This document shows, one piece after another, positions 1-14,119 of a stretch of 14,119 nt of DNA. Location of the stretch: the NCBI GenBank assembly GCA_027596035.1, contig JADGJA010000603.1:1-14119 (forward strand), read 5' to 3'. Source of the stretch: Thoreauomyces humboldtii (lineage: Eukaryota; Chytridiomycota; Chytridiomycetes; Spizellomycetales; Powellomycetaceae). A program made the position numbers and the translations under genes. Below the pieces are notes generated by a model that worked only from the letters and a program-made list of their open reading frames with translations, was not told the DNA's origin and ran no database searches. The stretch's first letter is position 1. Each line of letters opens with the position of its first letter.

Positions 1-1497
1 AGCGAGGGCAGCGCGCGTAGTATTTCGTGCAGACAGAGACAGAGAGATGCGAAATGCACTTTTTCGGAGGGTGTCTTGTCCGGTGGTCCGTGCGTGTTCC
101 CTCGGAGGCCCGAGGAACTGAAGAAAGGTCCCCAGCGTTCCGACCACAACTCTAAACCACCCTCCGGTTAGTCCGACCTCCCACAAAACTCAAAAGCTGC
201 CGCATCCTCGCTCAGCGCGAGCGTGCCTCGCTCCGGCCATCGCTCCGAACGGCCACGGTCTGTTCCTCGGTACAACGAGGAATGCATGACGTCGCCAGGC
301 GGAGAAGGGGACCTTCTTCATGCCCACATGCCCTGCCTGGCATGCACAGACGGCAGGACTACAGTATGGAATGTGAGCACAGTCAGCTGAAAGGGGAAGG
401 AGAGCTGAGCAATCAGGCTTTGAGAGGTTCTTCCTCGGCACACGGTCGGTAAATCATTTGCCAGGTGGTGCAATGTGAACCGGGAAACCCGGGGAACAAA
501 AGCCCGACCGCCTCTTTCTTTCCCCACACCCCTCCGAACTTCCGTCACCCGTGTTATAATGATGATCTTTTCGGAGCTTCCGGAGGGTACCTCGCTTTCG
601 GGACACAACCGAAAAAGCATTTTCCGGGACCGTTCGCGACCGTACACGTAACCGGTAGGGGGTCCTAAAAGGTCAGAAAGGTGTCATGCTCTTGTACATG
701 CGCCGGAGCGAGTTTGAGGGAAGGAACGAGCGGACAGTATGCCCAATGAGATCCCACACCGCCCTGCATTTCGAAAGTGTCACCATGATGCAACAGTACA
801 TACCCTTCTGTAGAGAGGATATCATCCCAGAGAACGAGAATAAAAGGACTCGGAGCGTCATATGGTTGCCTGCATGGAAGGCGATGAGCGCCAGTCGTGG
901 ACACTCCTCCTACACTTGTGTATGAACTGTACATATCCAGGCAAGTACCGGTAGCTCAGAAAGAAGATGTCTGGTTTCCCGAATCAACAAACCTGGTTGA
1001 CTGTATAACCTTGTACCACCGACACCGGATCCTGGGCTTCTTCTTTCTTTTCCTGATCCTCGTCTTTTTCGGACTTTCCTTTCGCCTCACACGTTTCCCA
1101 TCAGCTGGTCACCTTCCCTCTCCTCTCGCTGTCTATGCTCTGCACCGTATCCTGCCGCTGTGTCTCTCACCTTTTTTTTTCTTTTACTGTACTTTGGACG
1201 AGGAAAAGAAGGACAGGGACGGGCACAGTTTGCAGTGCATGTGGGGGTGCGTTGTCTAGGCGCATGGGGGAAGAGGGTGGCGTGGGGGACCGCTGCGAGG
1301 TCTACCGCAGTGATACAGGCAGCAGCAGCAGCAGTATCAGGGCTACATGTATCTCTGCATGATGGCCCCCATGCACAGCCTGTGCAGTTGTTTTTCGAAC
1401 GAGTTTGCTGCAACTGGCTCTCGTGGACCATCACCATCACCGTTCGACTTCCCCAGAATTCAAGACCGGCTGCTGCCCGAACACGCCATACGCGTAA
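1..1497. other. No supported gene; upstream region of the RGS-like gene
   Basis: I see no convincing coding region here on either strand. The open frames are short and overlapping, with no recognisable motifs, and I could not chain them through splice sites into a conserved-looking protein. The stretch 1040-1190 is pyrimidine-rich, including an uninterrupted T run near 1172-1180. Such tracts are common in fungal promoters and 5' UTRs, so this may be the promoter and leader of the gene at 1498. A gene made of very small exons, or a non-coding RNA, cannot be excluded. Confidence 0.5.
1320..1334. repeat. CAG trinucleotide microsatellite, five units
   Basis: Five perfect CAG units lie in the untranslated region upstream of the RGS-like gene. 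No supported reading frame crosses them. They are a likely length-polymorphic site and nothing more can be said. Confidence 0.9.
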
Positions 1498-2800
1498 ATG
1501 TTACCCAGTCCAAAGCGCGAGTTGCGTCGAATGCCTGCTGGAATCAGACTGCCACACATGTCCTCCCTACCTCCCTTCCATGAAGCCCACGGCAGAGGCA
1601 GCGCCCTCTTAGAGCAGTTGGAACTGCGTCTGGCAGGGGATGCTGAAGAACTGGGAAGTAAAACTGTCACCGCCGCACCAACTCCGCCTCCTACGGGTCC
1701 ATTGCCCCCAACTCCATTTCCACCTCCATCACCACCGTTGTGTCTCGGACGGACCATATCGCCGACGCCTAACCGCGACTCTGGCGGAACGAGTCGAAGG
1801 GCCTTTGTGCGCACCTTGTTTGTGAACGAGGTGTCCTTCCGGGCCTTTTCTCGATTCGCTCTGGTAAATCGTTGCTTAGGTCGCAACGAGCAGTATATGC
1901 AACCTACTGATGCTTCTTTTCGCTTCTTCATAGCACCTGGAACCATTCTTTTTCCACGCTCTTCGATTCCACTCCCTGTACACGGGTCTTTGTCTTGCGC
2001 TCCTAGAGCAACTCCCATCGACCTATCGCGACGCATTACCACGCGAGACACTCCCCACGTTCGGCATCGCCCGCTTTGTATCGCCCATCTGTCCGCCATC
2101 CGCTCCACCGCTCCTCATCCCCGCAGCCCTGCGACCACGTTTCCTGGTCCTCTGGGACATGTACCTTCGGAAGGAGACGGCAGGATCCCAGTACATCGGA
2201 GGATCCCTCCCTCAAGAGACGCGCCTGAGCCTCGCCACAGCCATCACAGGCGCGACCGTGTGGTGCGGCGTGCTGGACGAAGCAGTCGGGAGAATCCTCG
2301 AGATCCTCTATCAGGACGGGTTCACCGTGTTCGCGAGACGTACGGCCGGCCTGGCGGTCAGATCGCATCCGGACATCCAGTTCGCACCGAGGGTCGGTCA
2401 GGGAAACTGGCCGGAATCGGCGAGACTCGCCATCCCGTCGTCATCGCCATTGTCATCATCTTCGTCGACCGCGTCATCCCCACCTCCTCTTCCTCCTCCA
2501 CGACCGCAAAGCGACGGTCCACCACCATCGACCCTACGAACCCGCGCCTCGAACGCCAGCTTCAACACGACCTCGGCCATCGCGTCCCGTTCGACGTCGC
2601 TGCGTCCGTTGCCGGGATGGGCGGTCAGTCGACCGCTCTTGCATTCCGCGTCTTGCTTCGCCTTGGGGTCCACGGCTCGAGTCGTCACGGAGGAGCAGTC
2701 CGGAGGCAAAGATCCGCGTCTACCTCGACGCAGACAGCTCAGACATTCTTCCTCGGTCGTACAGGACGAGGGGAGGGATTTCTGCCATATCCATCGGTGA
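1498..2800 (+). CDS. Divergent RGS-domain-like protein, two exons, about 410 aa
   Basis: Exons are 1498-1863 and 1934-2800, separated by a 70-nt intron (donor GTAAAT, branch-like CTGAT near 1910, acceptor ATAG). The intron is needed because the second half lies in another frame, and both sides join in phase 0. Residues 1-100 are Pro/Ser-rich. Residues about 101-260 are a helical domain with aromatic-rich stretches (FRAFSRFALHLEPFFFHALR), then an ICPPSAPPLLIP segment, then EAVGRILEILYQDGFTVFAR. This order and spacing resemble the RGS fold (regulators that speed GTP hydrolysis by G-alpha), whose last helices carry a similar A..V..L..D.F..F pattern. Residues after about 270 are Ser/Pro-rich and look disordered. 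The start is the first ATG of the frame; Met12 or Met21 are alternatives. The last codons could hide a further intron, since GTGAGC overlaps the stop. The gene model is fairly secure; the RGS assignment is inference. Confidence 0.6.
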
Positions 2801-3195
2801 GCGTAGTCGGCAGTGAGCCTGGTAGTGTTGGCTTTTTGTTTTCTCTACTTTTTTTTTTGGCGTACCGTATAGTAGAATAGCCCCTTGCCTGTTTTTATCT
2901 TACCCCTAATCATAATGTGTCGCTGTGCCCTCTGCATTTGATCCAATGTCAACCATATGCATCAACTACCATGCATTGATTCAATAGTTGTCCACCCTCG
3001 GGAATCATTCACTAATGCCTTCATTGGGAATGGTATCGCCCGTATCGAGTTTGGGAATGCTGCTTGGAATGTTGGTTGGATTATTGAGCGTAGTAAAGCA
3101 CAAGCAGATGGCTTCGAGCAGATATAAAGCAGAAGCGAAGATGATATCATTGAGACAAGTACAAGAAGTAGAAGGGGAAGGAAAGCTTGGTCAGT
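2801..3195. other. Convergent 3' intergenic region
   Basis: This is the spacer between the ends of the RGS-like gene (+) and the small gene (-). It holds a T run near 2852-2860 and a loose repeat of TTGGGAATG-like words between 3023 and 3075, so it is low in complexity. No AATAAA polyadenylation signal is evident. The frames across it are short and show no protein features, so I read it as overlapping 3' UTRs. Confidence 0.55.
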
Positions 3196-3759
3196 TCAGC
3201 GCCTTGTTCTTCTAAAAGAAAGCTGGAGAGATGACGAAACAAGTGAGAAGCGTAGACCCTCTGCATTTACACCGGCTGGGGACGGGTCGCCTCCCGTGAA
3301 GGAGGCAAGCTGCATTACCTACAAAAGAGACGAGAGACATAAAAGACATGCGAGCGAGAGAAGATACCAAGTATGCGGAGCCCCCAGACGACGAGATCCT
3401 TCGTTCCACCGTAAATTCGAAACCTCTCAACTGGCCGTCCGCGGTCAGGAGTTCTTCAGGCTCCCTGATGAAGATAGAAAGAGAGAGAAGGGAAAGAAAG
3501 AGAGAGATTGTCAGAGAAGAGCAGCGAGAACCGATCGAATGGAAACTGCGAGACTGTGAACTTACCAATCCCTGGAGCTCAGAGGGCCCGAGACTCCGGC
3601 TGGCTCCGCCGAGCGCTGAAGATCTTGGGGCGCCTGAGAAAGAGAGAGAGAGAGAGAGAAAGAGAAACCGATAGTCAGACAAGAAAGGCATGAATGAGAC
3701 AATATTGTGACTTACCAATCCTCAAAGCCCAGATCGCCCGGATGCTTTGGTTGGCCCAT
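3196..3759 (-). CDS. Small conserved-looking protein of unknown function, spliced, 65 or 87 aa
   Basis: The coding exons on the minus strand are 3759-3716, 3464-3368 and 3318-3196, if the exon at 3633-3566 is skipped. The frame then runs MGQPKHPGDLGFEDW into EPEELLTADGQLRGFEF and ends at a TGA at 3198-3196, giving 87 aa. This ATG is the first in the inferred transcript: the two upstream exons contain none. An optional 50-nt intron at about 3273-3224 (GTGTAA...CTCCAG, branch-like CTCAC) would shorten the end to ...DPSPAAFF, giving 65 aa with the stop at 3214-3212. The middle intron 3367-3319 is 49 nt. The protein is soluble, with acidic and hydrophobic blocks and no signal peptide, membrane segment or metal motif. 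I do not recognise the family. The coherent frame across three exons supports a real gene; cDNA is needed to confirm the splice choice. Confidence 0.6.
3566..3633 (-). other. Candidate skipped exon that would terminate translation
   Basis: This 68-nt block has a good acceptor (long pyrimidine tract ending CTCAG) and a good GATTG|GTAAGT donor. If included between coding exons 3716-3759 and 3368-3464, the frame reads 17 more codons and hits TGA. If skipped, the frame continues cleanly into the downstream exon. Its length is not a multiple of three. It therefore behaves like a poison exon, or is a decayed copy of the neighbouring exon. Inference from splice sites only. Confidence 0.4.
3640..3659. 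repeat. AG/CT dinucleotide microsatellite
   Basis: A run of AG units, read on the minus strand as the CT-rich tract directly before the acceptor at 3634-3635. Its length could influence use of the skipped exon. Confidence 0.9.
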
Positions 3760-4250
3760 CGGGCCCCGAAGCAAGGCCACTACTGAGAAGCAGTGCACCT
3801 TGAGTCCCCTGGAACGGATGAGAAAGACAATCAGAGAGTGGAAAAGTGAAGCGTATCAGCGAAGAGACCGTGGACTTACCAATCCTAGAAGCCCAGAGAA
3901 TAAGGAGCTCAGCTGGTATGGACGTCGAAAGATTGCAGATGGCGCGTTGTCGAATGCCGCGAGCGAAGCCTGCAAACAAACGAGAGAGCAGAAAAGAGAG
4001 GTCAGAAGTGAAGGGCCATTGGGAGATGCCGCGTGCGTTCAACAAGAACCCATCAGCACTTACGAGGAATGTCGGCGAAGAATGCCCGTGAGATGAGCTG
4101 CGCAGCCGTAGTCGAAAGGAGATGTCGGTCGAGGGTGTTCGATGGTTGCAGTGTGGCTGCCGAGCGTGCGGATGGATGGATGGATGGAGCGCTGTGGATC
4201 AGTCGGTCGGTGGGTCGAAGTCCTGGAGTTTCGTTGAAGGTGAAGATGGG
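3760..4250 (-). other. 5' untranslated exons of the small gene
   Basis: Upstream of the start codon, splice-like signals define exon 1 (from about 4250, a start inferred from the TATA box, to 4064), exon 2 (3969-3880) and the first part of exon 3 (3808-3760). The introns are 4063-3970 and 3879-3809, with GTAAGT donors and pyrimidine-rich CAG acceptors. None of these exon parts contains an ATG on the minus strand, as expected for a selected leader. The exon 2 and exon 3 ends are near-copies of each other. Confidence 0.5.
4171..4187. repeat. GGAT tetranucleotide microsatellite
   Basis: Four tandem GATG/GGAT units lie in the first untranslated exon of the small minus-strand gene, where the transcript reads them as CATC units. 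On the minus strand they create no ATG. Confidence 0.85.
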
Positions 4251-4277
4251 GCAGGGCGATGGGGCGATGGGTCCCCC

Positions 4278-4284
4278 TTTTATA
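4278..4284 (-). promoter_or_regulatory. TATA box of the small minus-strand gene
   Basis: On the minus strand the bases read TATAAAA followed by a G run. It lies about 220 nt upstream of the first donor at 4063 and would place transcription start near 4250. No ATG occurs on the minus strand between here and the donor, which fits a leader exon. Confidence 0.55.
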
Positions 4285-4316
4285 CTGCGCGCTGGGACCC
4301 GGATCCTTGTTTTGGC

Positions 4317-4376
4317 GAAAGTGGTTGGCACAGCCTTCGCAACGAGGTCGAAAGTGTTTGTGGTTGGCACAGCCTT
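4317..4376. promoter_or_regulatory. Duplicated 17-bp upstream element
   Basis: GTGGTTGGCACAGCCTT occurs perfectly twice, at 4321-4337 and 4360-4376, each preceded by a CGAAAGTG word. The copies start 39 bp apart and lie about 37 and 76 bp upstream of the TATA box on the minus strand. That is a typical place for activator sites. The factor is unknown. Confidence 0.5.
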
Positions 4377-4384
4377 ATCTGTCC

Positions 4385-5104
4385 CCGTCAGTCTCTATCT
4401 GCCGCCTCGGTTCCGGAAGATGGTGCTCCCTTTGAGATGCGAGTCGCAACAGACGAAAACAGTGATGAGCGCATCCTCATTTCGTCATGAATATGTTCTT
4501 CGCGTCCAGCTCGAGGATTAGCACTGGAAGCAGCAATGAATTCGTTTGCTTTGTCTTTACAACGTTAGGTCCAAGTACGTTTGTACCGGGGAACGGCTAT
4601 GACAGCGAGGTCCTTGCCTCACAAAGCTTTTCGCAAGTTCGGTTTGAACAGACAAAATGGTGGTTCACATGTATGACTCATCGCCTGTCGATCGGTTGTG
4701 GCGTTCTCGCTGAGGGACGAACCATGATCGTCCCCGTGCTGCCTCCCGCTGCGACGCTCCCAGGACATGAAGACTTGAGAGGACCGACAGGACCCAGGAC
4801 GCGACTTGAGTGTCTGCTAGCAGCCGCCAGCAATGGACCACGCGACAGGACGGGGGCGTGGCGAACTTCTTGCTGCTAGGGAATCACTGGATGAAGAATG
4901 TACCATAGCAGCTGCATTAAAAGACTGCTAAGAGAAAAGGTGCAGTAAACCATCTCAATGATGAATCTCATCCTTCCGTATGATGCACACGCTATGACTC
5001 CCTAAGCTAACAGAAAACGCGAAACTAGGAAAGGGGACAAATACAAAAATGAGCTTGATCCCCACTCCAAACCCCAATGCACTTCCTTAGCAACTGGGTT
5101 TTCT
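4385..5104. other. No supported gene
   Basis: This is the spacer between the promoter of the small gene and the 3' end of the Ubl-RING gene; both are transcribed leftwards. One plus-strand frame stays open from 4487 to 4879, but its translation has no domain, no motif and irregular composition, so I do not call it. The part from about 4880 to 5104 is AT-richer and is probably the 3' UTR of the gene at 5105. Confidence 0.5.
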
Positions 5105-6327
5105 TTAACGCAGGATGGTCACATGCCCCTCGGGAATTGCACCGCATTCTGGACAACCCGACCACGTAGCCAACCATTCCGTCGCGCAACATCTGGGGAT
5201 CCGATGACCACAAGGGAGCTCGAATACGCCTTCATCGACGCCTCCCAAGCACATAGGGCACCTATCGTTCGGCTGTCGATCGTCGTCGAGTGGCCTGGTT
5301 TGTAAGACCAGCCGTTCCCATTGAGCGATGCCCATGTGAGAGCGACGGAAGGCTTGGTAGGCGTCTTCCCAGCGAGCTGCCTTCCATGGTGATGTGGCGC
5401 GGACTATATCCCGGCGGACTTGGTCAGTGATCTTCATTCCAACGAAACGGTACTGGCAGTTGTTGAGGGCGCAGTCCTTGCTCTCAACGAAATGGCCGCA
5501 TTGGGGACACTTGCTTTTCTCCAAGTTGTCAATGGGGGAGTATTCTTCGTAACCGAGGTTGATGATGACCTGAGGGAATTATAACCCAAATCGATCAGAG
5601 TTTTGCGTCCCTTTTGCCACCGAAACCCGCTCGGGCAGCTACTCTTTACCATTTGTCTGTACGCGGCGCACGCGCGGTTGTTGCAAATTCCCTCAAGCGT
5701 GAGACCGGGTTCTGCAATCATCCATGTCGGACCCGTGGCAGTCCATGCGATTCGCTGAGGTCCTACCGGATTCTGCACGTTCACGTAACTGAGGCCAAGT
5801 CCCGTCGGTTCGTATCCTCCACGAAGTGCACCCGAGATCTCGATGTAGCTGTCGTTTCGGATTCCGTAGTGAGACAGCAGCTTGTCAAGGCTCAAAGGTC
5901 GTGACTGGTAGGAGAGTCTCTGTTCCTTTAACGGCAGGTGAGTGCGTTCCTCGATGCAAAGCGCCATGTCCTTGACGGTTCGAAACAGTCCTCGACAGCA
6001 GATGGTGGTTCCATCGAGGTTTCGGGCGAAGACGGATTCGACAAACTTGTCCTTGTCGGTGGGTTTCCAGACGCGAAGAAACCAATGGGCGCCAAAGATG
6101 TCAAAGTACTCGGTGGGACGGTTATCATCTTTGGAGGTGATGAGCCGGGAGCCGACGGCCATCGTGAAGGCCGGGGAAGATGTGCGGTTGTCGAGTTTCA
6201 AGGATTCCAGAAGGCGGTGGAAACGGTTCGCCAAGTCCTTGGCGGTGAAGGTGCTGTCGGGACTTTTGAGGTCGACTGCGAGCAGGCCGCCGGGAAGCCC
6301 GGTTGTGTGTAAGGTGAGCGTCGACAT
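5105..6327 (-). CDS. Tandem ubiquitin-like, Cys-cluster and RING protein (copy A), 380 aa
   Basis: Exons are 6327-5650 and 5569-5105, with an 80-nt intron (GTAAAG...CTCAG) in phase 0. Residues 1-86 form a divergent ubiquitin-like fold (TLTLHTTGLPGG start). Residues about 98-171 are a clear ubiquitin-like domain that aligns along the whole of ubiquitin (EQRLSYQSRPL, HYGIRNDSYIEI) and ends in LRGG. Residues 172-270 carry a Cys cluster: C215, C220, C247, C250, C259, C264. Residues 330-368 are a C-terminal RING with ligands C330, C333, C346, H348, C354, C365 and C368; the expected second histidine is P351. A RING suggests an E3 ubiquitin ligase, but the lost ligand may weaken E2 binding; C353 could substitute. 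Start M at 6327 is chosen because copy B starts identically; an in-frame M at 6453 exists. I know of no named family with this order. The partner copy lies directly upstream on the same strand. Confidence 0.8.
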
Positions 6328-6719
6328 ATCTTTGGGATGGTTGTCGAGTTGAGTCCACGGGAAACCAAAGAGGCTGGGTGAGAGCGCGAAGCAAAGTCCT
6401 ACTTTTATGGAGATCCCCTGTCCTGTCTTTGAGCGGGAGACGGGAGGCGGCATGCTTGAGACAGAAGTACATGTGTCCTGTTTGACTTGACAGGCTTTCG
6501 GTCGGAACCGTCTCAGCTCTCAGCTTCGAGCCGTCATGTTTTCTCGACAGAACAACCACGAGGATCCCCACATCTTCAGATGAGTTGACATTTGCGAATT
6601 TCATGCTACGGGGCTCTCGGAAAGACCATATACTGCCCCCGTAACTAGTGGAATAATCTCTCAGCACTACCGACCTCCCAAAACCCTATACGCCTAGACT
6701 CCTCCCCCCGTTTTCCCGC
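6328..6719. other. Spacer between the two Ubl-RING copies
   Basis: About 390 bases lie between the start of copy A and the stop of copy B, both on the minus strand. The stretch must hold the promoter and leader of copy A and the 3' UTR of copy B. I see no TATA box, no further Ubl or RING remnant and no insertion sequence. Confidence 0.5.
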
Positions 6720-7933
6720 TCAGAACATCATGATGGGCGCGGTCTCGTCGCACACCGGACAGGTCTGCATGCCCAACTGCACCCAATCTCCAGCGCAACG
6801 ACCATGGGTTCGATGACCGCAGCTGAAACGGCAGGTTCCGCTTTCCTCCTCCTTCAAGCCATCCTGGCACACACCGCATCTGACGGTCTTCTTACTTTCG
6901 CTGTCGGTTCCGAGCTTCTTGGTCTCGATGATGAGCTGGAGCCAGTGCGCGGTGCCCAAACGAGAACGACGGAACGTTTGGTAGGCATCCTCTGGCTTGA
7001 CAGATACCCAGTCGGATTGTAGACGCTTGGTGCCGTGCGACTCGTCGATGCGGAGACCAAGGAAGCGGTACTGACATCTACTGAAACCGCAGTCCTGGTT
7101 TCTGGCGCGCTTTTGGGAGGCGAACCGCCCTTCGGAATCGGTTTGAGCTACGTGAACGTGGCAAACGAGCTGAGACCGCGGCAGATACCTTGGAGCCCGA
7201 AGGCTCCTGCCTGGCGCAGAGCTCGACCTGGTCTCGTCGTCGAAGGAGAGTGCTCGAATACAGAATGTGCTGCTCATGAGAAAATGGTAAGTGCTGTCTT
7301 GACATAGCGTAGAAGCCTTTGCGGGCAAACGACTAATCGGCCACTTTGGTGAGTTTTTCTTAGGTGATGATCAACATGGGATTCGGAGAATACTCTCCTG
7401 CGCACGACATGGCCAAGAGCATCTGTCCTATGTGCAGCACCTACGTCCCACAGTTCCATCTCTCTGAATGCCGTAATGCTTGAGAGACTGGCCCATGTCT
7501 AGGCGTCGCGAACAATGGGAAAGCCGCTGAGCCCGAATCGACATGCCCGTCCGATCCTCGATAGCCAAAGCAAGTTCCTTGACAGTACGGAACGATCCTC
7601 GAAGGATCCTGGTCTTGCCGTCGATGTGTCTCACGAAAATAGAGTCGATTGCCTCTCCGGCGACGGTGTCTCGGACGCGGAGGAACCGAAGACTTCAAAG
7701 TAGTGCAAGGGACGGTCAGCGTCTTCCCTGGTGATGGGGCGATCACCGACAGAGATATCAAAGGTGCGAGAGAGGGATCCTTTCTTCTCGTCATCTGCTT
7801 TGGGAGGGGAGAGACATTGACGGATGCGCTCCTCCATGTCTTTGGTGGTGCTTGCACCGTCAGAATCCTTGATCCGAATTCTCTTGAGCCTATGGCCGGG
7901 GAGACCGGAGACGTAGATAGTAAGCGTCGGCAT
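6720..7933 (-). pseudogene. Rearranged Ubl-RING paralogue (copy B), inverted core and frameshift
   Basis: Three pieces match copy A. First, 7933-7449 (-): ATG with MPTLTIYVSGLPG, then the first and second Ubl. The frame breaks near 7685, where FEVFG joins FLRV and about 10 nt corresponding to AHW are missing. Second, 7095-7448 lies on the PLUS strand: SGALLGG, the conserved GLSYVNV segment and PGLVVEGECSN, then an intron at 7287-7363 in the same place as in copy A, then INMGFGEYSP and CPMC. Third, 7094-6720 (-): CGFSRCQYRF and an intact RING (CGVC, CGHRTHGRC, CPVC), ending in a TGA at 6722-6720. Read as DNA stands, no full protein can be made from either strand. The RING here keeps the histidine that copy A lost. 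It is either a recent pseudogene or an assembly inversion; the well-preserved pieces argue for recent damage. Confidence 0.75.
7095..7448 (+). other. Inverted internal segment of copy B
   Basis: The 354-bp block encodes, on the plus strand, the end of the second Ubl (SGALLGG) through the first Cys pairs (CPMCSTYV). Its flanks encode the adjoining parts on the minus strand. The ends are placed by homology to copy A, with about 3 bp uncertainty. No clear inverted repeat or target duplication flanks it. It includes a canonical 77-nt intron (GTAAGT, CTAAT, CTTAG), which shows its native reading direction is plus. Confidence 0.75.
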
Positions 7934-8852
7934 GTCAGAATGCCCTGGGGATTTGGCAAACTTCGAAGATGGTAGAAGAGCTGGAAGATGCTCAACGTCG
8001 AACTTATCTGAATGAAGTGCGGGTGAAACCGCTTTGTCTCGAGCAGGCGCGGTTTTTGACAGATGACAGATCGCGGGTCTCAGCGACCAAAGCTGACGGC
8101 TGTTCGACTCCGACGCTTCGACGCCTCGGTTAAAGCGGCATCCTCGTCCTCCTCGTGGTGTACCGACGATGCGACGTCGGCTGCTCACAAGAAACCGCAG
8201 CGGACGAAGAGCCGTTCCAAGTTGCGGTTTCTTCGGCAGCCTTTCCAAAGCGTTGGCTTTTCAAGACAGTCACTCCCATTTGCCGTGCTAGAATTGCCTT
8301 GTGTCTGGTCTTTATCATTATTCTGCGTCACGACTGAGCACCGACACCTACAGTAGAGTCAACAGCCGGTGTCGCTCGAAATAGAAAATCGGGAGCTAAT
8401 TCCGTCCTGTTCGCTTACCGATCCATCCCATTGTCCGTTGATGCCCCCTATCAGCTGCTGCTCAATCGCCCTCCGCAATTCAAAATGTTCCACGGAATAG
8501 ACGAGAAAAGTTGACGCAAGCGGGGATTGGTAGGAAGGCTACATGCGACAAAAGCTTGAATCCCGAATCACATCCCGCCAAAAAAAGGTGAGAAACCGGT
8601 CCGTCGAAAGGGCAGCCACCATTTCCTCACTCTCTCCCCTCCTTCAGTTCTTTCTTGTCGTCTTGTCTCGGAAAAGTGTGTGATCATCTGCCAGGTTGGT
8701 CTGCTTCCTTGAGGGCACTGGGTCTGTACTTGTTAGTGCTCATGACGACATTGGACCTTCCCGCTAGAAACCACATTTGGGTAGCCCGTGATCGCTTGCA
8801 GTGAAGAGGACATTAGTTTCCCAAAAGAAACCCATCTACCACGAAACTCATC
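7934..8852. other. Divergent promoter region between copy B and the FHA-RING gene
   Basis: About 900 bases separate the start codons of two divergently oriented genes. Minus-strand frames extend upstream of 7933 but match nothing in copy A, so I treat them as leader. Pyrimidine-rich stretches near 8630-8665 and an A run near 8580-8586 suggest a promoter or leader for the gene at 8853. I see no other gene. Confidence 0.5.
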
Positions 8853-10678
8853 ATGCCCGGTCCACAAATCGACACGCTTCTTGTCGCCCCATCACCCTCC
8901 GCCAGCGACCCGCTCACGCCATCGACTCCAACGGACTCCGGCGTCATCCGCATCCAGCTCATCCCTCACTCTGACGTCGTGGGTCGCCCCGCACTTGGAG
9001 ATGTCGTCGAACGATCTTTTAAAGAAGGAATGGCTCTCCGCATTGGCAGACAAGTGCTGAAGGACGGACTGCCCACCGTCGTCAAAGGTCAGAAGCAGCC
9101 GAAGGAGGATGACATCTGGTTCGCTAGCAAGGTCGTCAGTCGAAATCATGCCGAGATGTGGGTCAAGGACGGTCAGGTGGGTGCTCGATACTCAAGACTT
9201 GTCAGGTTTGGTCTTTTCAACCTGTCGGTTGTGAACCATCTGCCTTATCGCATATCAGATATACATCAAGGACATTGGTAGTTCGTCGGGGACATTTCTG
9301 AACAAAATGCGACTCAGCCCATCTGGCAAAGAAAGCAGACCGTACCCCTTAAAGGAAGCGGATTTGGTGCAGTTCGGAATAGATTACAAGGGGAAGCCAG
9401 ATGGTAAGCGAGTTCGATAGATTCCCGGCCATTCACCTGTGACGTTGAGAACCTGCAGAAGCTAAAGAACGTCGCTTTGTTTTCGCAAAGATATATACAA
9501 GAGTATCATGGTACAGATCGGGTTTTATGATCAATCTTGGGTTCATCAGCAGCGCCGGAAAGCAAATCCCGCTCGGTAAGAAGATATGCTCGCTGTCCAA
9601 ACAACATGTCCGTGCTTTCATCTCACGCCTCGTCCCTTTCAGATTCCGCACGGCTCTCAAGATGCTTCTAGCAGCTGCCAACCCATTCGCAACGGTTTCC
9701 GATTCTCCCGAGGACGACACGACCGGCACCGACTGCTGCATATGCATTGGTGCGATCGGACCCTTCCAAGCTCTCTTCGTGGCCCCTTGCTCTCACTGTT
9801 ATCACTACAAATGCGTGCACGGCATCCTTGCCCAGTCAGCCATGTTCCAATGCCCGATGTGCAGACAGGTAGCCAACCTCGCCGCCAGCGTCAGCAGCGA
9901 CTCGCTCTTCGACGACGCCGAAGCTGCCGAAGGAAGAGGCGGCGAACCCGTTCCACGTCACATGGGTGCCTTGAGGGATGGGAACGAGACAGAAGCGACA
10001 TCACCTGCCGCAGTAGTCGTCCCCAACCCGCTGGCGAGGTTGAACCTGGACCGCACCGCCGAGCCAGCGTCGGGCAACGCTACGCCTAGGAACCACGAGC
10101 GGTCGGTGGGAGGTGCAACATCGATCGCGTCTCCGGACTCTGACGCGACCGCTTCCCTTCGGTCTCCCGTCGAACGACTTCGACCCATGTCGGGCGGGAC
10201 GGCCATCCTTGGCAACGAAGGAGGTTCCGGTGCCACCACGCCGACCCAACAGAGCAACGGTGGTGGCCCGGCTACGCCCACGAACCGTCGACACAAGCGT
10301 CGATCCTCCTCTCTCACCTCAAAGCTTAACGCACTCCTCCGCAGGGGAGACAAAAAGGAGAAAGATGAGGTCCCAGACGTTGGTGGAGGGAACGGTCTCT
10401 CACCTGCCTCGTCGGTGGCCGTTCCGGAAGAGGATGGAAGTGGTGGCAGTGGCAGTGGCAGTGGGGATCGTCAGCATCTTATGGACAGGCTATCCCCTAC
10501 CACCGACGCTGCCCAGGACACGGAGACGGACGAAACGAGGGGAAGGGAAGGACACAGCAAGTACCATCGGGGTCGGGAGAGCGCAGTGACCGCCGAGGGT
10601 AACGCGCATGGCAGCGACGACGAGACCAACATACTAGCTTCGAAAGCGTCGGCGGACGATGTGAGTATCGGCGAGTAA
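8853..10678 (+). CDS. FHA-RING E3 ubiquitin ligase, Dma1/CHFR family, 529 aa
   Basis: Exons are 8853-9176, 9259-9403, 9491-9575 and 9643-10678; introns are 82, 87 and 67 nt. The acceptor at 9490 is chosen over the CAG at 9458 because it gives the family-like IYKSIMVQIGFYDQSW and the phase that exon 4 needs. Residues about 60-185 form an FHA domain with the phosphothreonine-binding signature: IGR (64-66), SRNH (96-99) and GSSSGTFLN (115-123). Residues 216-258 form a RING with C216, C219, C234, H236, H239, C242, C255 and C258. The tail (260-529) is Ser/Gly/Thr-rich, with basic and GSG repeats and no further domain; the PAR-binding zinc finger of animal CHFR is absent. Known members act as checkpoint ligases that restrain mitotic exit or septation at spindle poles and the bud neck. 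Function here is inferred from the family; the domain call is very secure. Confidence 0.92.
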
Positions 10679-10997
10679 TGATCGCGTCGAAGGTACAAGA
10701 GTGCGGACAGGATTTTTGTGGTATTCAATTGAAAGTCGTTGCTTGTTGTAAGCGGTTTCGTTGCCGCGAGCTTGGCTGAAAGCACTGTTCATTGTACGGG
10801 CCCTCGCAAATGTGATGGGACAGTGTTCTGGTGCCATTTAAGAATGATTGACAAAATCAGAGCTATTCCGAGCAGCACCAAGTCTAGGAGCGGAGACGAC
10901 TGGCACATCTGAATAGGTCGATTTCATTGTGAACCAGAGGTATCTCAACATTCAATGCAAATGATCCAACGCATGTGTAGCGATGAAGTATGCTGCT
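10679..10997. other. Convergent 3' intergenic region
   Basis: About 320 bases lie between the stop codons of the FHA-RING gene (+) and the PARP-like/B-box gene (-). No frame here has domain features. The two 3' UTRs probably share this stretch, so antisense overlap of transcripts is possible. Confidence 0.55.
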
Positions 10998-13224
10998 TCA
11001 GTAAGTCTCGGCTGCTGACGACATGATTGAGGACCCTATGGAATCGTCAGAAAAACAAGCTGATGAACTCTCAACGACGGAGAACATCTCGTACCTTCGT
11101 CGTCGGAATGGTCATGACGGTGACCATGTGCGGTGGCTGCACGTGGAGCGCTCATTTGATCGAAGGTGCCTAATGTTTCCGCGAAAAAGTCCTGTGTTGA
11201 AGGAAGTTTAGAGGGGATTTGTATGGTTAACCAGAAATCTACATGACTTACGGATATCCGACGGTGAACTCGACGTTCTGGCTTGAGCGTCTGCGTGGGC
11301 ATACCCATCCCGAATCCACTTGCTTTTGGAGAAGTCTTGGCTGCTCATGAGTCCAAAGCGGAAGGTATAGATGGTCTGGCGTACACAAAACTTACCACTG
11401 GTCCCGACAGCGTCGCCGCTTTACTTCCGTGACCATGTCCATGACCATGACCTAACTTCTTTCCACCGCCTCCTACGCCTCCCCCTCCGGCACCTCCCGT
11501 CCCAGCTCCATTTGGACCACCATTTGCGACCACAGCGGCGCGATCCCTGTCGATACTGACTGTGATCCCTCCGGTGATCCTCGCGTCGAGCTGCACGTCG
11601 ATCTGGTTCCGGAAGAACCGGAAGTCGTGCAACTCGGATCGGCATTGCTGATGTTTTGCCCAGTTGAACAGGAAGGTGGTGGCGTCTCCTTCCTGCTGAT
11701 AACGGAGGAACTCTTCCAAACGTTCGATCTCTCCGAATTGACGGTGGAGCTCCAGTTCGTCGCCTAGCAAGACTGTCAACTACGAGAGTATGTCGGTGAG
11801 TTTGTCAAAAAACAAGAAGTGTTGATTGATGAATTTTTTGTCCCTCTACCTTGTTCTTGACCACATGCTTAAGGTCAGCCATGGCGCGCTTGTACATATC
11901 TTCAATTTGAGCTTCTATTTGGGCTCCCATCTTCTCCACAGCTTTGGCCCGGGAATTCACGGCAGCGATCTGGCTAGTGATCTCTGTGCGGCGTGCTTGG
12001 AGGATCGGATCATGCTAAGAATATTGTGATATGTATCATCAGCCAGTGCCACACCATACAAATCTTGCCCCGCGGAGAAGTGATTACCGTCTGAGCCTCC
12101 TGAATGACAGATGTGTATGCCTCCGCGACACTGACAAGCTGATGCCGTGCAGCCTCCCCGTTTGCATGGTTGCCGACCATCTTGCAGAACACGCAAACAG
12201 GGATGTGGCACTGTGAGCAAAAGAACTCGATGAGCTTATCCGGATGGTGTCGGCAGCTTCCAAACACGTCAGCTCCTTTTCCGATCGGCGTGCGGACGTG
12301 TCGACTGGCAAGTTTGGAAACGTGGAGCTGAGCGTCGCATTTTCCGCAGAGATTAGCTGCGTCCGCTGTGCAGAAGACGGTGGCGTGTTCCTCCTCGCAA
12401 TTGTCGCACTTTGCTTTCTATGAATCCCAAAAACGACGAAGTCCACGTTAGCAGAGTTCAGTGTGCTTCAATGACACTGAGCACTATTCACCTCGCGAGA
12501 TTTGTTTTCCTTTGAATAGTCAAAGTCGTAGTGAACGAGGTACACAGGAAGAATCTAGTTGTCGAAAATGTCAATCGACCGGTTCCGCCCGCCGTAGTTC
12601 CTGTCCAATCCTGATGGGCACCTGGCCCCACATACTTGGGCGGTCTCTCGAACAAAATACTCGTGATGGTACTGGTCATTGACGTTCTTGGGGTCCTTCG
12701 CAGCATCATCACCAGGGCCTACGCAGCTCTCTTTAGTCACGTATTCCTTTGCAGATGAGCCTTGACGGTGGATTTTTACCTTTGACGTAAAAGCTATCGT
12801 ACCCATCCGGAACCTTCGTGTTCTCGGCAGTGACTTCATCAGCTACATAAGCTCTCCCAACGCCGACTCTGCACAGCAGCGCTTTCCGCAGCCCCCTTCC
12901 CTCTCCTTTCCGTCTCCCAGCCTCCAGTCCACCGACCACGAACTTCATGCCATGTTGGCTGGGTGGAAACTCGAAGCCCCTGCGAATGACGTCCTCCTCG
13001 GTGTTGGAACCCGCGAGCTGAGTTGCGTCTAGCCAGGACGGTAGGATGAGGGTGTCGTTGCATCGTTTCTCGAACTGAAGCGTGAGATGCGGGTTGGACA
13101 GCGCGTGCGCCGACACGATCCGGGTGGTGCTGGCGCGAAGAGCAAGTTGGAGGGAATACTCGAGGGCACCAAATTCGGGCGTCCCTGGTGAGAGCTGAGT
13201 CTTGCCGCCGTGCTTCTCTGACAT
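10998..13224 (-). CDS. PARP-like region with two B-boxes and coiled coil, TRIM-like, 562 aa
   Basis: Nine exons: 13224-12780, 12718-12636, 12554-12492, 12417-12088, 12014-11850, 11779-11396, 11335-11252, 11191-11095 and 11035-10998. All introns are 59-81 nt, GT-AG, and all phases agree. Residues about 48-190 resemble the C-terminal half of PARP catalytic domains: ALLCRVGVGRAYV, DGYDSFYV, then HHEYFVRETAQILPVYLV, where E168 sits at the catalytic glutamate position. The usual HG and Y motifs are not visible. Residues 201-237 are a CONSTANS-type B-box (CDNC, C213, D216, C221, C224, H229, H237). Residues 252-289 are a TRIM-type B-box (C252, H255, C264, C267, C272, C275, H281, H289). Residues about 290-400 are Gln/Glu/Lys-rich and likely coiled coil. 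The tail is Gly-rich, with GHGHGHGHG near 476-484 and HGHRHDH near 540. It may be an ADP-ribosyltransferase-like scaffold; activity is unproven. The exon 7 acceptor (AAG) was chosen by phase and is the weakest junction. Confidence 0.8.
11426..11452 (-). repeat. Coding Gly-His repeat
   Basis: Alternating GGN and CAY codons encode GHGHGHGHG in the tail of the PARP-like/B-box protein. Such runs can bind divalent metals. The DNA repeat is also prone to slippage. Confidence 0.85.
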
Positions 13225-14008
13225 CTTGGTGGGTGCTCTGCTGCAGGGAAGGGTTTGGCTACGTGTAAAACGAATCTTGAAGGTAAAATCGTGAACGCGT
13301 CCTGATTTCGGGACGGAGCCGATGCGCGCTCCTTTTGCGGACCGCCGCCCGAGCAGCGACCTTACATCGGGCCCAAAGACACTTTTTTCACGCGACAGAG
13401 GAACTGGAAGAGCTCATGGACGTGCTGGTTACAAACTGTTAGCCATTTAGCTTGCCCGCTATGACCATATTTGCGCATGCACGCTTTCGACTGGTTTCGA
13501 AACAACCGAGAGACCCGTCCCCTGCAGCTGAAACAGCTTTGGGCACTCTCACCACGTCCACGTCCGGTAGCCCTTCGCTGGGGATTCCAGACCTCTCCAA
13601 GCTGTGCATTTATCGAATCAGGTTCTCATGAGAATATGTTGCATCTCCATAAGCATTAGTTTACGTTGGGGTGAGTCCGCTCGCCATCCACCAGTCAAGC
13701 ACTCTGACGCGCCTGTTGGCTAGAGTCATCGCGGCGTCCGTGTAATGCCATGTGAACTACAGTACGGTAAATGTTCACCCGGCGATGTGGGCAAGAAAAC
13801 TATTGTTCGGATGTGCCATGAACAGCCGAACAATACTTTTTCTATGTCTGTCGTCCTGCAATAGTTGAGTTCAATCGCTTTGACGAGGGCGCTGCTGTCG
13901 GACCAGAAGGTGCTGTTCCGCGGTTCCACAAAGTAAAAAGTCCGTCTTTTGACCCAGCATACATTTGCCGTTTACCGGATGACCAAAGTAAGTGTAGAGT
14001 AGCGCTAA
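13225..14008. other. Upstream region of the PARP-like/B-box gene; no gene seen
   Basis: This stretch holds the promoter of the gene starting at 13224 and the 3' side of the RG-tail gene at the right edge. Two short frames (plus 13471-13659 and minus 13726-13929) have no protein features and are left out. I see no TATA box in good position. Confidence 0.5.
13295..13300. promoter_or_regulatory. ACGCGT (MCB-like) site
   Basis: A perfect ACGCGT lies about 70 bp upstream of the start codon of the PARP-like/B-box gene. In yeasts this hexamer is the MBF site that drives G1/S and replication-stress genes. A single hexamer can occur by chance, so the call is tentative. Confidence 0.25.
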
Positions 14009-14119
14009 CTACCCCGGAGGTATTCTACCTCTGCCTCTACCCCGTCCTCTGCCTCTACCCCTCCCCCTCCCAGCGTTTCCGGGCCTCCGCCTTGCTGGAG
14101 GTGCCTGTTGTCCCCTCCG
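14009..14119 (-). CDS. C-terminal RG-repeat tail of a protein cut by the window edge
   Basis: The minus strand is open from the right edge to a TAG at 14011-14009. The 36 residues begin RRGQQAPPARRRPG and end with an alternating Gly-Arg run and IPPG. Long GR repeats close several small RNA-binding proteins, notably Sm D1, Sm D3 and Lsm4, where the arginines are methylated and help snRNP assembly. The Sm fold itself would lie outside the window, so the identity cannot be settled. Other RGG proteins are equally possible. The rest of the gene, and any introns, lie to the right. Confidence 0.55.
   Translation of the reverse strand, partial: RRGQQAPPARRRPGNAGRGRGRGRGRGRGRGRIPPG

Follow-up and report, generated by a model that had tools for sequence, protein, structure and literature searches.

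A chytrid relative of the preconoidal-ring proteins PCR4 and PCR5, with a PARP-like head, two B-boxes and modelled coiled-coil helices

What is a protein that joins a PARP-like domain to two different B-boxes and a probable coiled coil doing in a zoosporic fungus? The question is raised by a gene in a 14,119-nucleotide stretch of the chytrid Thoreauomyces humboldtii (assembly GCA_027596035.1, contig JADGJA010000603.1, positions 1 to 14,119, the entire contig), hereafter the window. The gene lies on the minus strand, from 13224 to 10998, in nine exons, exactly the number originally predicted. The joined exons give, letter for letter, a protein of 562 amino acids (P0001, T. humboldtii hypothetical protein HKX48_007306), the top protein match of the window protein. 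This protein is almost certainly a fungal member of the family of PCR4 and PCR5, two core proteins of the preconoidal ring at the cell apex of Toxoplasma gondii.

Kinship with PCR4 and PCR5

The single window protein matches Toxoplasma PCR4 (TGME49_201220) at E = 5.8e-53 and PCR5 (TGME49_242320) at E = 6e-31; with a profile built from 39 members, the values are E = 6.7e-85 for PCR4 (profile positions 11-459) and E = 6.7e-56 for PCR5 (18-398). The homology to both is collinear over the head, the two B-boxes and the coiled-coil helices, and the folds of the individual domains match those of the solved chains in PDB entry 9ya0. The head alone finds PCR4 at E = 4.2e-16. The finding is also reciprocal: the fungal query returns PCR4 and PCR5 from the PDB, and a PCR4 query returns a protein of the fungal clade, P0040, which was found by both queries and is 88% identical to a Piromyces protein. 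Each side has features of its own, in PCR4 long inserts in the head, in the fungal protein a long tail, disordered and bearing a DFFAETLG motif. The original prediction had known of no described system with this architecture; PCR4 and PCR5 have the same layout, and since a solved example exists (9ya0), the architecture is not categorically new.

In PMC12819142, two PCR4/5 heterodimers are the core of a unit that repeats about 46 times in the preconoidal P2 ring. The same paper lists PCR4 and PCR5 as essential, calls them homologous, describes them as deeply embedded subunits with likely structural roles, and states that the ring assemblage has no known counterpart. Loss of either protein leaves the rings absent and gliding not started, according to PMC12663574, which cites earlier work. 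PMC12819142 states, in its legend to Extended Data Fig. 8, that AlphaFold, ToxoDB and FoldSeek were used to assign the domains of the ring proteins. The main text of PMC7951837 mentions neither of the two gene identifiers, and that of PMC11005440 yielded no passage with them. No paper in the literature searched joined 'preconoidal' with 'PARP' or with 'chytrid', and none of six listed papers joined it with 'B-box'; within that literature, the domain figure of PMC12819142 being unseen, neither an occurrence of the family in fungi nor an interpretation of preconoidal proteins as PARP-like or as B-box proteins was found.

The domains of the protein

The spliced protein carries ALLCRVGVGRAYV (residues 115-127), GYDSFYV (141-147) and EYFVRETAQILPVYLV (168-183), the three late PARP signatures that had been read from the DNA, in the predicted order. 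These motifs are more than chance, because they lie within a domain that matches PARP folds in the predicted model (Foldseek and VIA-align structure comparison) and PARP4 (E = 3.6e-4) and tankyrase-1 (E = 0.017) by family profile; structure prediction and profile search both bear out an ADP-ribosyltransferase (ART)-like head. With the catalytic (ARTD) domain of tankyrase and other PARPs the head shares the fold and a VG...GYDS...EY.V...Q...YLV core. Pfam PARP is matched at E ≤ 0.5 by 6 of 39 family members (best 0.011), and of seven proteins taken from the PCR4-seeded match list and scanned, the Theileria equi orthologue alone passes the cut-off (28.3 versus 26.7 bits). The degenerate PARP head would name the fold of the N-terminal half of PCR4 and PCR5. 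A local hidden Markov model search scored the T. humboldtii PARP on contig C106 weakly and that on C617 not at all. A separate stretch of this genome (G000:C691, 11190-11522, L018) is a near copy of the canonical C106 PARP with in-frame stops and looks like a decayed duplicate.

Behind the head, Pfam zf-B_box recognises two stretches (E = 4.8e-16), and the CONSTANS-type and TRIM-type B-boxes of the original prediction are both present. The first (about residues 198-240) matches CONSTANS (7wsj) at E = 2.4e-12 and keeps the spacing C-x2-C-x8-C-x2-D-x4-C-x2-C-x4-H-x7-H; the second (251-294) is a TRIM B-box2, matching TRIM63 (2d8u) at E = 3.9e-5. The zinc ligands are kept in nearly all family rows, the exception being the last His of B-box2, mostly missing on the apicomplexan side. 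Helices modelled at middling confidence over residues 310-335 and 346-391 fit the coiled coil that had been proposed, and B-box2 and helices together match TRIM3 (E = 1.2e-4) and TRIM72 (E = 9.7e-4) by profile. As in TRIM (RBCC) proteins, B-box2 is followed by long helices; the window protein differs from them in having no RING domain by Pfam, a pseudo-ART head, and a CONSTANS-like first B-box. The domain reading that placed an ADP-ribosyltransferase-like fold where TRIM proteins carry their RING was right. Two further B-box loci in the genome, on contigs C344 and C37, resemble on visual inspection an unrelated B-box protein and a fragment of TRIM type.

Distribution, proposed role and alternatives

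All distribution results come from searches that score only about 8000 candidates sharing most words with the query, which places distant groups (ciliates, algae, animals) out of reach. With the window protein as query, 7994 candidates were scored, and 78 of them pass E = 0.001. The 53 that carry an organism name or genome code all belong to zoosporic fungi or aphelids, namely chytrids, Neocallimastigomycota, Blastocladiomycota or aphelids; six were verified in the taxonomy, and the others, with the codes Hompol1, Orpsp1 and Partr_v1, presumably fall where we have placed them. No Dikarya or other non-flagellated fungi occur among these 53, although the search reached members with as little as 36% identity. 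Used as query, an alignment of 39 members returned 78 matches, of which 74 had been found before; the orthologue in Spizellomyces punctatus, SPPG_07075, is 75% identical. Seeding with PCR4 gave 33 matches among 7993 scored candidates, 24 of them with an apicomplexan name, in the genera Toxoplasma, Besnoitia, Cystoisospora, Cyclospora, Eimeria, Plasmodium, Cryptosporidium, Theileria, Babesia and Selendium, which we take together as Apicomplexa, Selendium being a gregarine. Public names such as 'E3 ubiquitin-protein ligase' and 'zinc finger protein' are uninformative or misleading for this family. Three public models are questionable: a PCR4 relative in Babesia that is annotated as 'E3 ubiquitin-protein ligase arc-1' (P0109), a Phlyctochytrium member fused to a lariat debranching enzyme (P0079), and a member fused to a PRELI domain (P0052).

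We put at roughly 60% the probability that the protein is a dimeric scaffold protein of the flagellar or cortical cytoskeleton and not an enzyme, a single gene likely giving a homodimer that serves as a repeating unit. Taken separately, a dimeric scaffold is probable, and the flagellar apparatus as its main location is somewhat favoured. The PARP-like head, very probably catalytically dead, lacks the catalytic motifs and would have become a protein-binding module; the CONSTANS-type B-box and B-box2 would act as zinc-stabilised interaction modules; and the helices, as a TRIM-like coiled coil, would dimerise the protein. The chytrid homodimer would then most likely be a repeating scaffold unit of the zoospore flagellar (basal-body or cortical) apparatus, and apicomplexans may have built the preconoidal ring from the family of this scaffold. 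Because chytrids, like other fungi, have no conoid, a scaffold is the most likely shared property; because the named fungal members are zoosporic, we infer the flagellar apparatus or a cortex tied to it. The T. humboldtii assembly (823 contigs) holds one full gene and a partial 3' copy on contig C418, not the two paralogues of the preconoidal-ring heterodimers.

A published precedent for inferring a flagellar role from distribution is apicortin (TgDCX), a conoid-fibre protein that also occurs in flagellated fungi and one non-flagellated fungus, and for which its author's hypothesis is the stabilisation of flagellar microtubules (PMC12189498). Its distribution in fungi resembles that of the present family; apicortin itself is an unrelated protein made of a partial p25alpha and a doublecortin domain. 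The T. humboldtii genome has p25alpha and doublecortin loci on different contigs, and for that reason these are not shown to be apicortin. SAS6L has reportedly been used earlier to argue for a flagellar origin of the conoid (PMC3697468), and the PCR4/PCR5 family would join apicortin and SAS6L as molecular links. That a chytrid protein belongs to the same family as ring-core proteins suggests that part of the ring is older than the parasites. More tentatively, the core block of the preconoidal ring might be an ancient flagellar component that predates the split of fungi and alveolates, with a homomeric ring or plate near the chytrid basal body and with PCR4 and PCR5 arising by duplication; as part of the same tentative proposal, the family would be a class of pseudo-PARP/B-box/coiled-coil scaffolds, a TRIM-like design with a dead ADP-ribosyltransferase at the RING position. 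A free-living zoosporic relative, homologous over nearly its whole length, would be a counterpart for one part of the ring, and whether the apical complex derives from the flagellar apparatus, an old question, becomes testable outside parasites.

Several observations weigh against the scaffold proposal and its basis. The whole model superposes poorly on the 9ya0 chains, PCR4 included (Foldseek root-mean-square deviation [rmsd] 34-37 Å, template modelling [TM] score 0.27-0.49; VIA-align rmsd 7.3), so the same domain arrangement is not established; the model itself has a mean predicted local distance difference test score (pLDDT) of 69.6, a predicted TM score (pTM) of 0.59, and low confidence between domains. 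The window protein does not reach Pfam PARP in a Pfam scan, comparing profiles with a single PARP of the T. humboldtii genome gave no significant match, and a comparison with two of its PARPs was end-to-end but weak (probability 34, E = 4e-4); the residue-by-residue catalytic register is therefore only inferred. Among the 78 matches to the fungal query, 25 carry no taxon label. For chytrid members, a search for data on expression, localisation or binding found none, and no counterpart of CGP/PCR10, the ring partners with Clu and TPR-like domains, was recognised in the T. humboldtii genome with the pieces tried. Finally, the link to the flagellum is not strict, since the gene is kept by Cryptosporidium, Babesia and Theileria, which lack a typical flagellum, and by Amoeboaphelidium, whose spores are mainly amoeboid.

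The main rival to the flagellar location is a cortical or secretory role: the protein would belong to the same PCR4/PCR5 family, its ancestral job being to scaffold secretion or actin at the pole or cortex of the cell. We consider this unlikely, if the best of the alternatives. Aflagellate apicomplexans keep the gene, as noted above, which fits such a role. So does the composition of the P2 ring, into which SEC23/24, the formin FRM1 and the myosin MyoL are built (PMC12819142). Non-flagellated fungi also have secretion and actin, however, and they supply no named match within the roughly 8000 candidates scored, unlabelled matches aside.

Far less probable is a TRIM-like regulator whose active ADP-ribosyltransferase, in place of the RING ubiquitin ligase, modifies targets recognised by the B-boxes. 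The ART fold of the predicted head and the TRIM3 and TRIM72 matches agree with it, as does the catalytic Glu site, which is Glu in 48 of 79 filled rows on the fungal side and in 23 of 32 on the apicomplexan side and is otherwise variable. PARP/ARTD enzymes, however, have a catalytic His, in an HG motif, and a catalytic Tyr, and the head departs from them at both. HG[ST] is absent at the catalytic place; among the 106 heads long enough to be counted (8 of 114 proteins were dropped) it occurs in three, always within a variable insert. At the Tyr position, located in a register drawn from sequence patterns and weak profile alignments, without superposed coordinates, PARPs have G-x-Y-F and the window protein G-M-K-F, and a Lys or Arg stands there in 63 of the 73 filled rows on the fungal side and 25 of the 29 on the apicomplexan side. 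Given the missing HG[ST] and the basic residue at the Tyr position, ADP-ribosyltransferase activity of the head is very unlikely. The activity implied by the original prediction thus fails on both the motif and the Lys at the NAD-stacking Tyr, and the head, judged from its sequence, is very probably catalytically dead. The description of the Toxoplasma homologues as embedded and likely structural (PMC12819142) also speaks against an enzyme.

Contamination, or a recent horizontal transfer between chytrids and apicomplexans, would account for the patchy spread of named matches (zoosporic fungi, aphelids and Apicomplexa only, within search reach) and is very improbable. The gene has nine exons, and orthologues lie on contigs of up to 2.2 Mb. 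In a tree of 52 rows (51 of the 114 proteins and a piece of PCR5), a fungal side of 33 rows (support 99/99) stands apart from an apicomplexan side of 18 rows (99/94). Supported groups unite the 7 rows of Blastocladiomycota, the 10 of chytrids and the 3 of aphelids (2 named, 1 other), a pattern that speaks for vertical descent; the Neocallimastigomycota pair does not fall with the chytrids, and the PCR5 piece is a very long branch beside the arbitrary root. A well supported clade of six rows (P0054, P0061, P0064, P0066, P0071 and P0076; 100/99) adjoins the fungi. Least probable of all is a B-box transcription regulator of the plant CONSTANS kind: CONSTANS is the nearest solved structure to the first B-box besides PCR4/5 and the Cys/Asp/His spacing is kept, but Pfam finds no CCT or other DNA-binding domain in the window protein, and the match to the ring proteins is collinear.

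Exons, partial copies and neighbouring genes

Exon 1 (12780..13224, minus strand, as are all nine) opens with the start codon and encodes residues 1-148, which make up most of the PARP-like (pseudo-ART) domain. Exon 2 (12636..12718) encodes the end of a loop and the strand with EYFVRETAQ, the catalytic Glu position, and exon 3 (12492..12554) encodes ILPVYLVHYDFDYSKENKSRE, the final PARP-like strand and a linker. Both B-boxes and the start of the helical part fall in exon 4 (12088..12417). Coiled-coil helices occupy exon 5 (11850..12014); exon 6 (11396..11779) carries the second long helix, a conserved region with FLFNWAKHQQ and IDVQLD, and the start of a Gly/His-rich tail. The disordered tail continues through exon 7 (11252..11335) and exon 8 (11095..11191), the latter with the DFFAETLG motif common to many fungal members, and exon 9 (10998..11035) ends with the C-terminus and stop codon. 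The span first proposed, 12088-13224, therefore stops after exon 4 and leaves out the coiled coil and the C-terminal tail, which reach down to 10998. The B-box part did not turn out to be a separate gene, the outcome named beforehand as fatal to the reading: there is one gene, with orthologues of the same domain order. The partial second copy of its 3' end (L015, G000:C418, 1457-1775) is 75% identical over 326 alignment columns to window positions 10995-11308, a region that takes in exons 8 and 9, the larger part of exon 7 and the associated introns.

Elsewhere in the genome there are two CLU loci, one on C821 (E = 1e-80) and a divergent one on C573 (E = 2e-8). The C573 gene (L016, G000:C573, 975-3336, minus strand), whose start looks PH-like by eye, was considered as a CGP/PCR10 counterpart; its pieces found nothing relevant in the PDB and no 9ya0 chain at E = 1. 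Within the window, two neighbouring minus-strand genes at 5105-6350 and 6720-7930 look like a tandem pair, with a ubiquitin-like stretch (by eye, in one of them followed by LRGG) upstream of a C-terminal RING recognised by Pfam. On the plus strand, at about 8850-10678, lies a RING protein (zf-RING_11 by Pfam) whose N-terminal part is FHA-like by eye, though that piece alone has no Pfam match; we take the protein to resemble a Dma1-type ubiquitin ligase.
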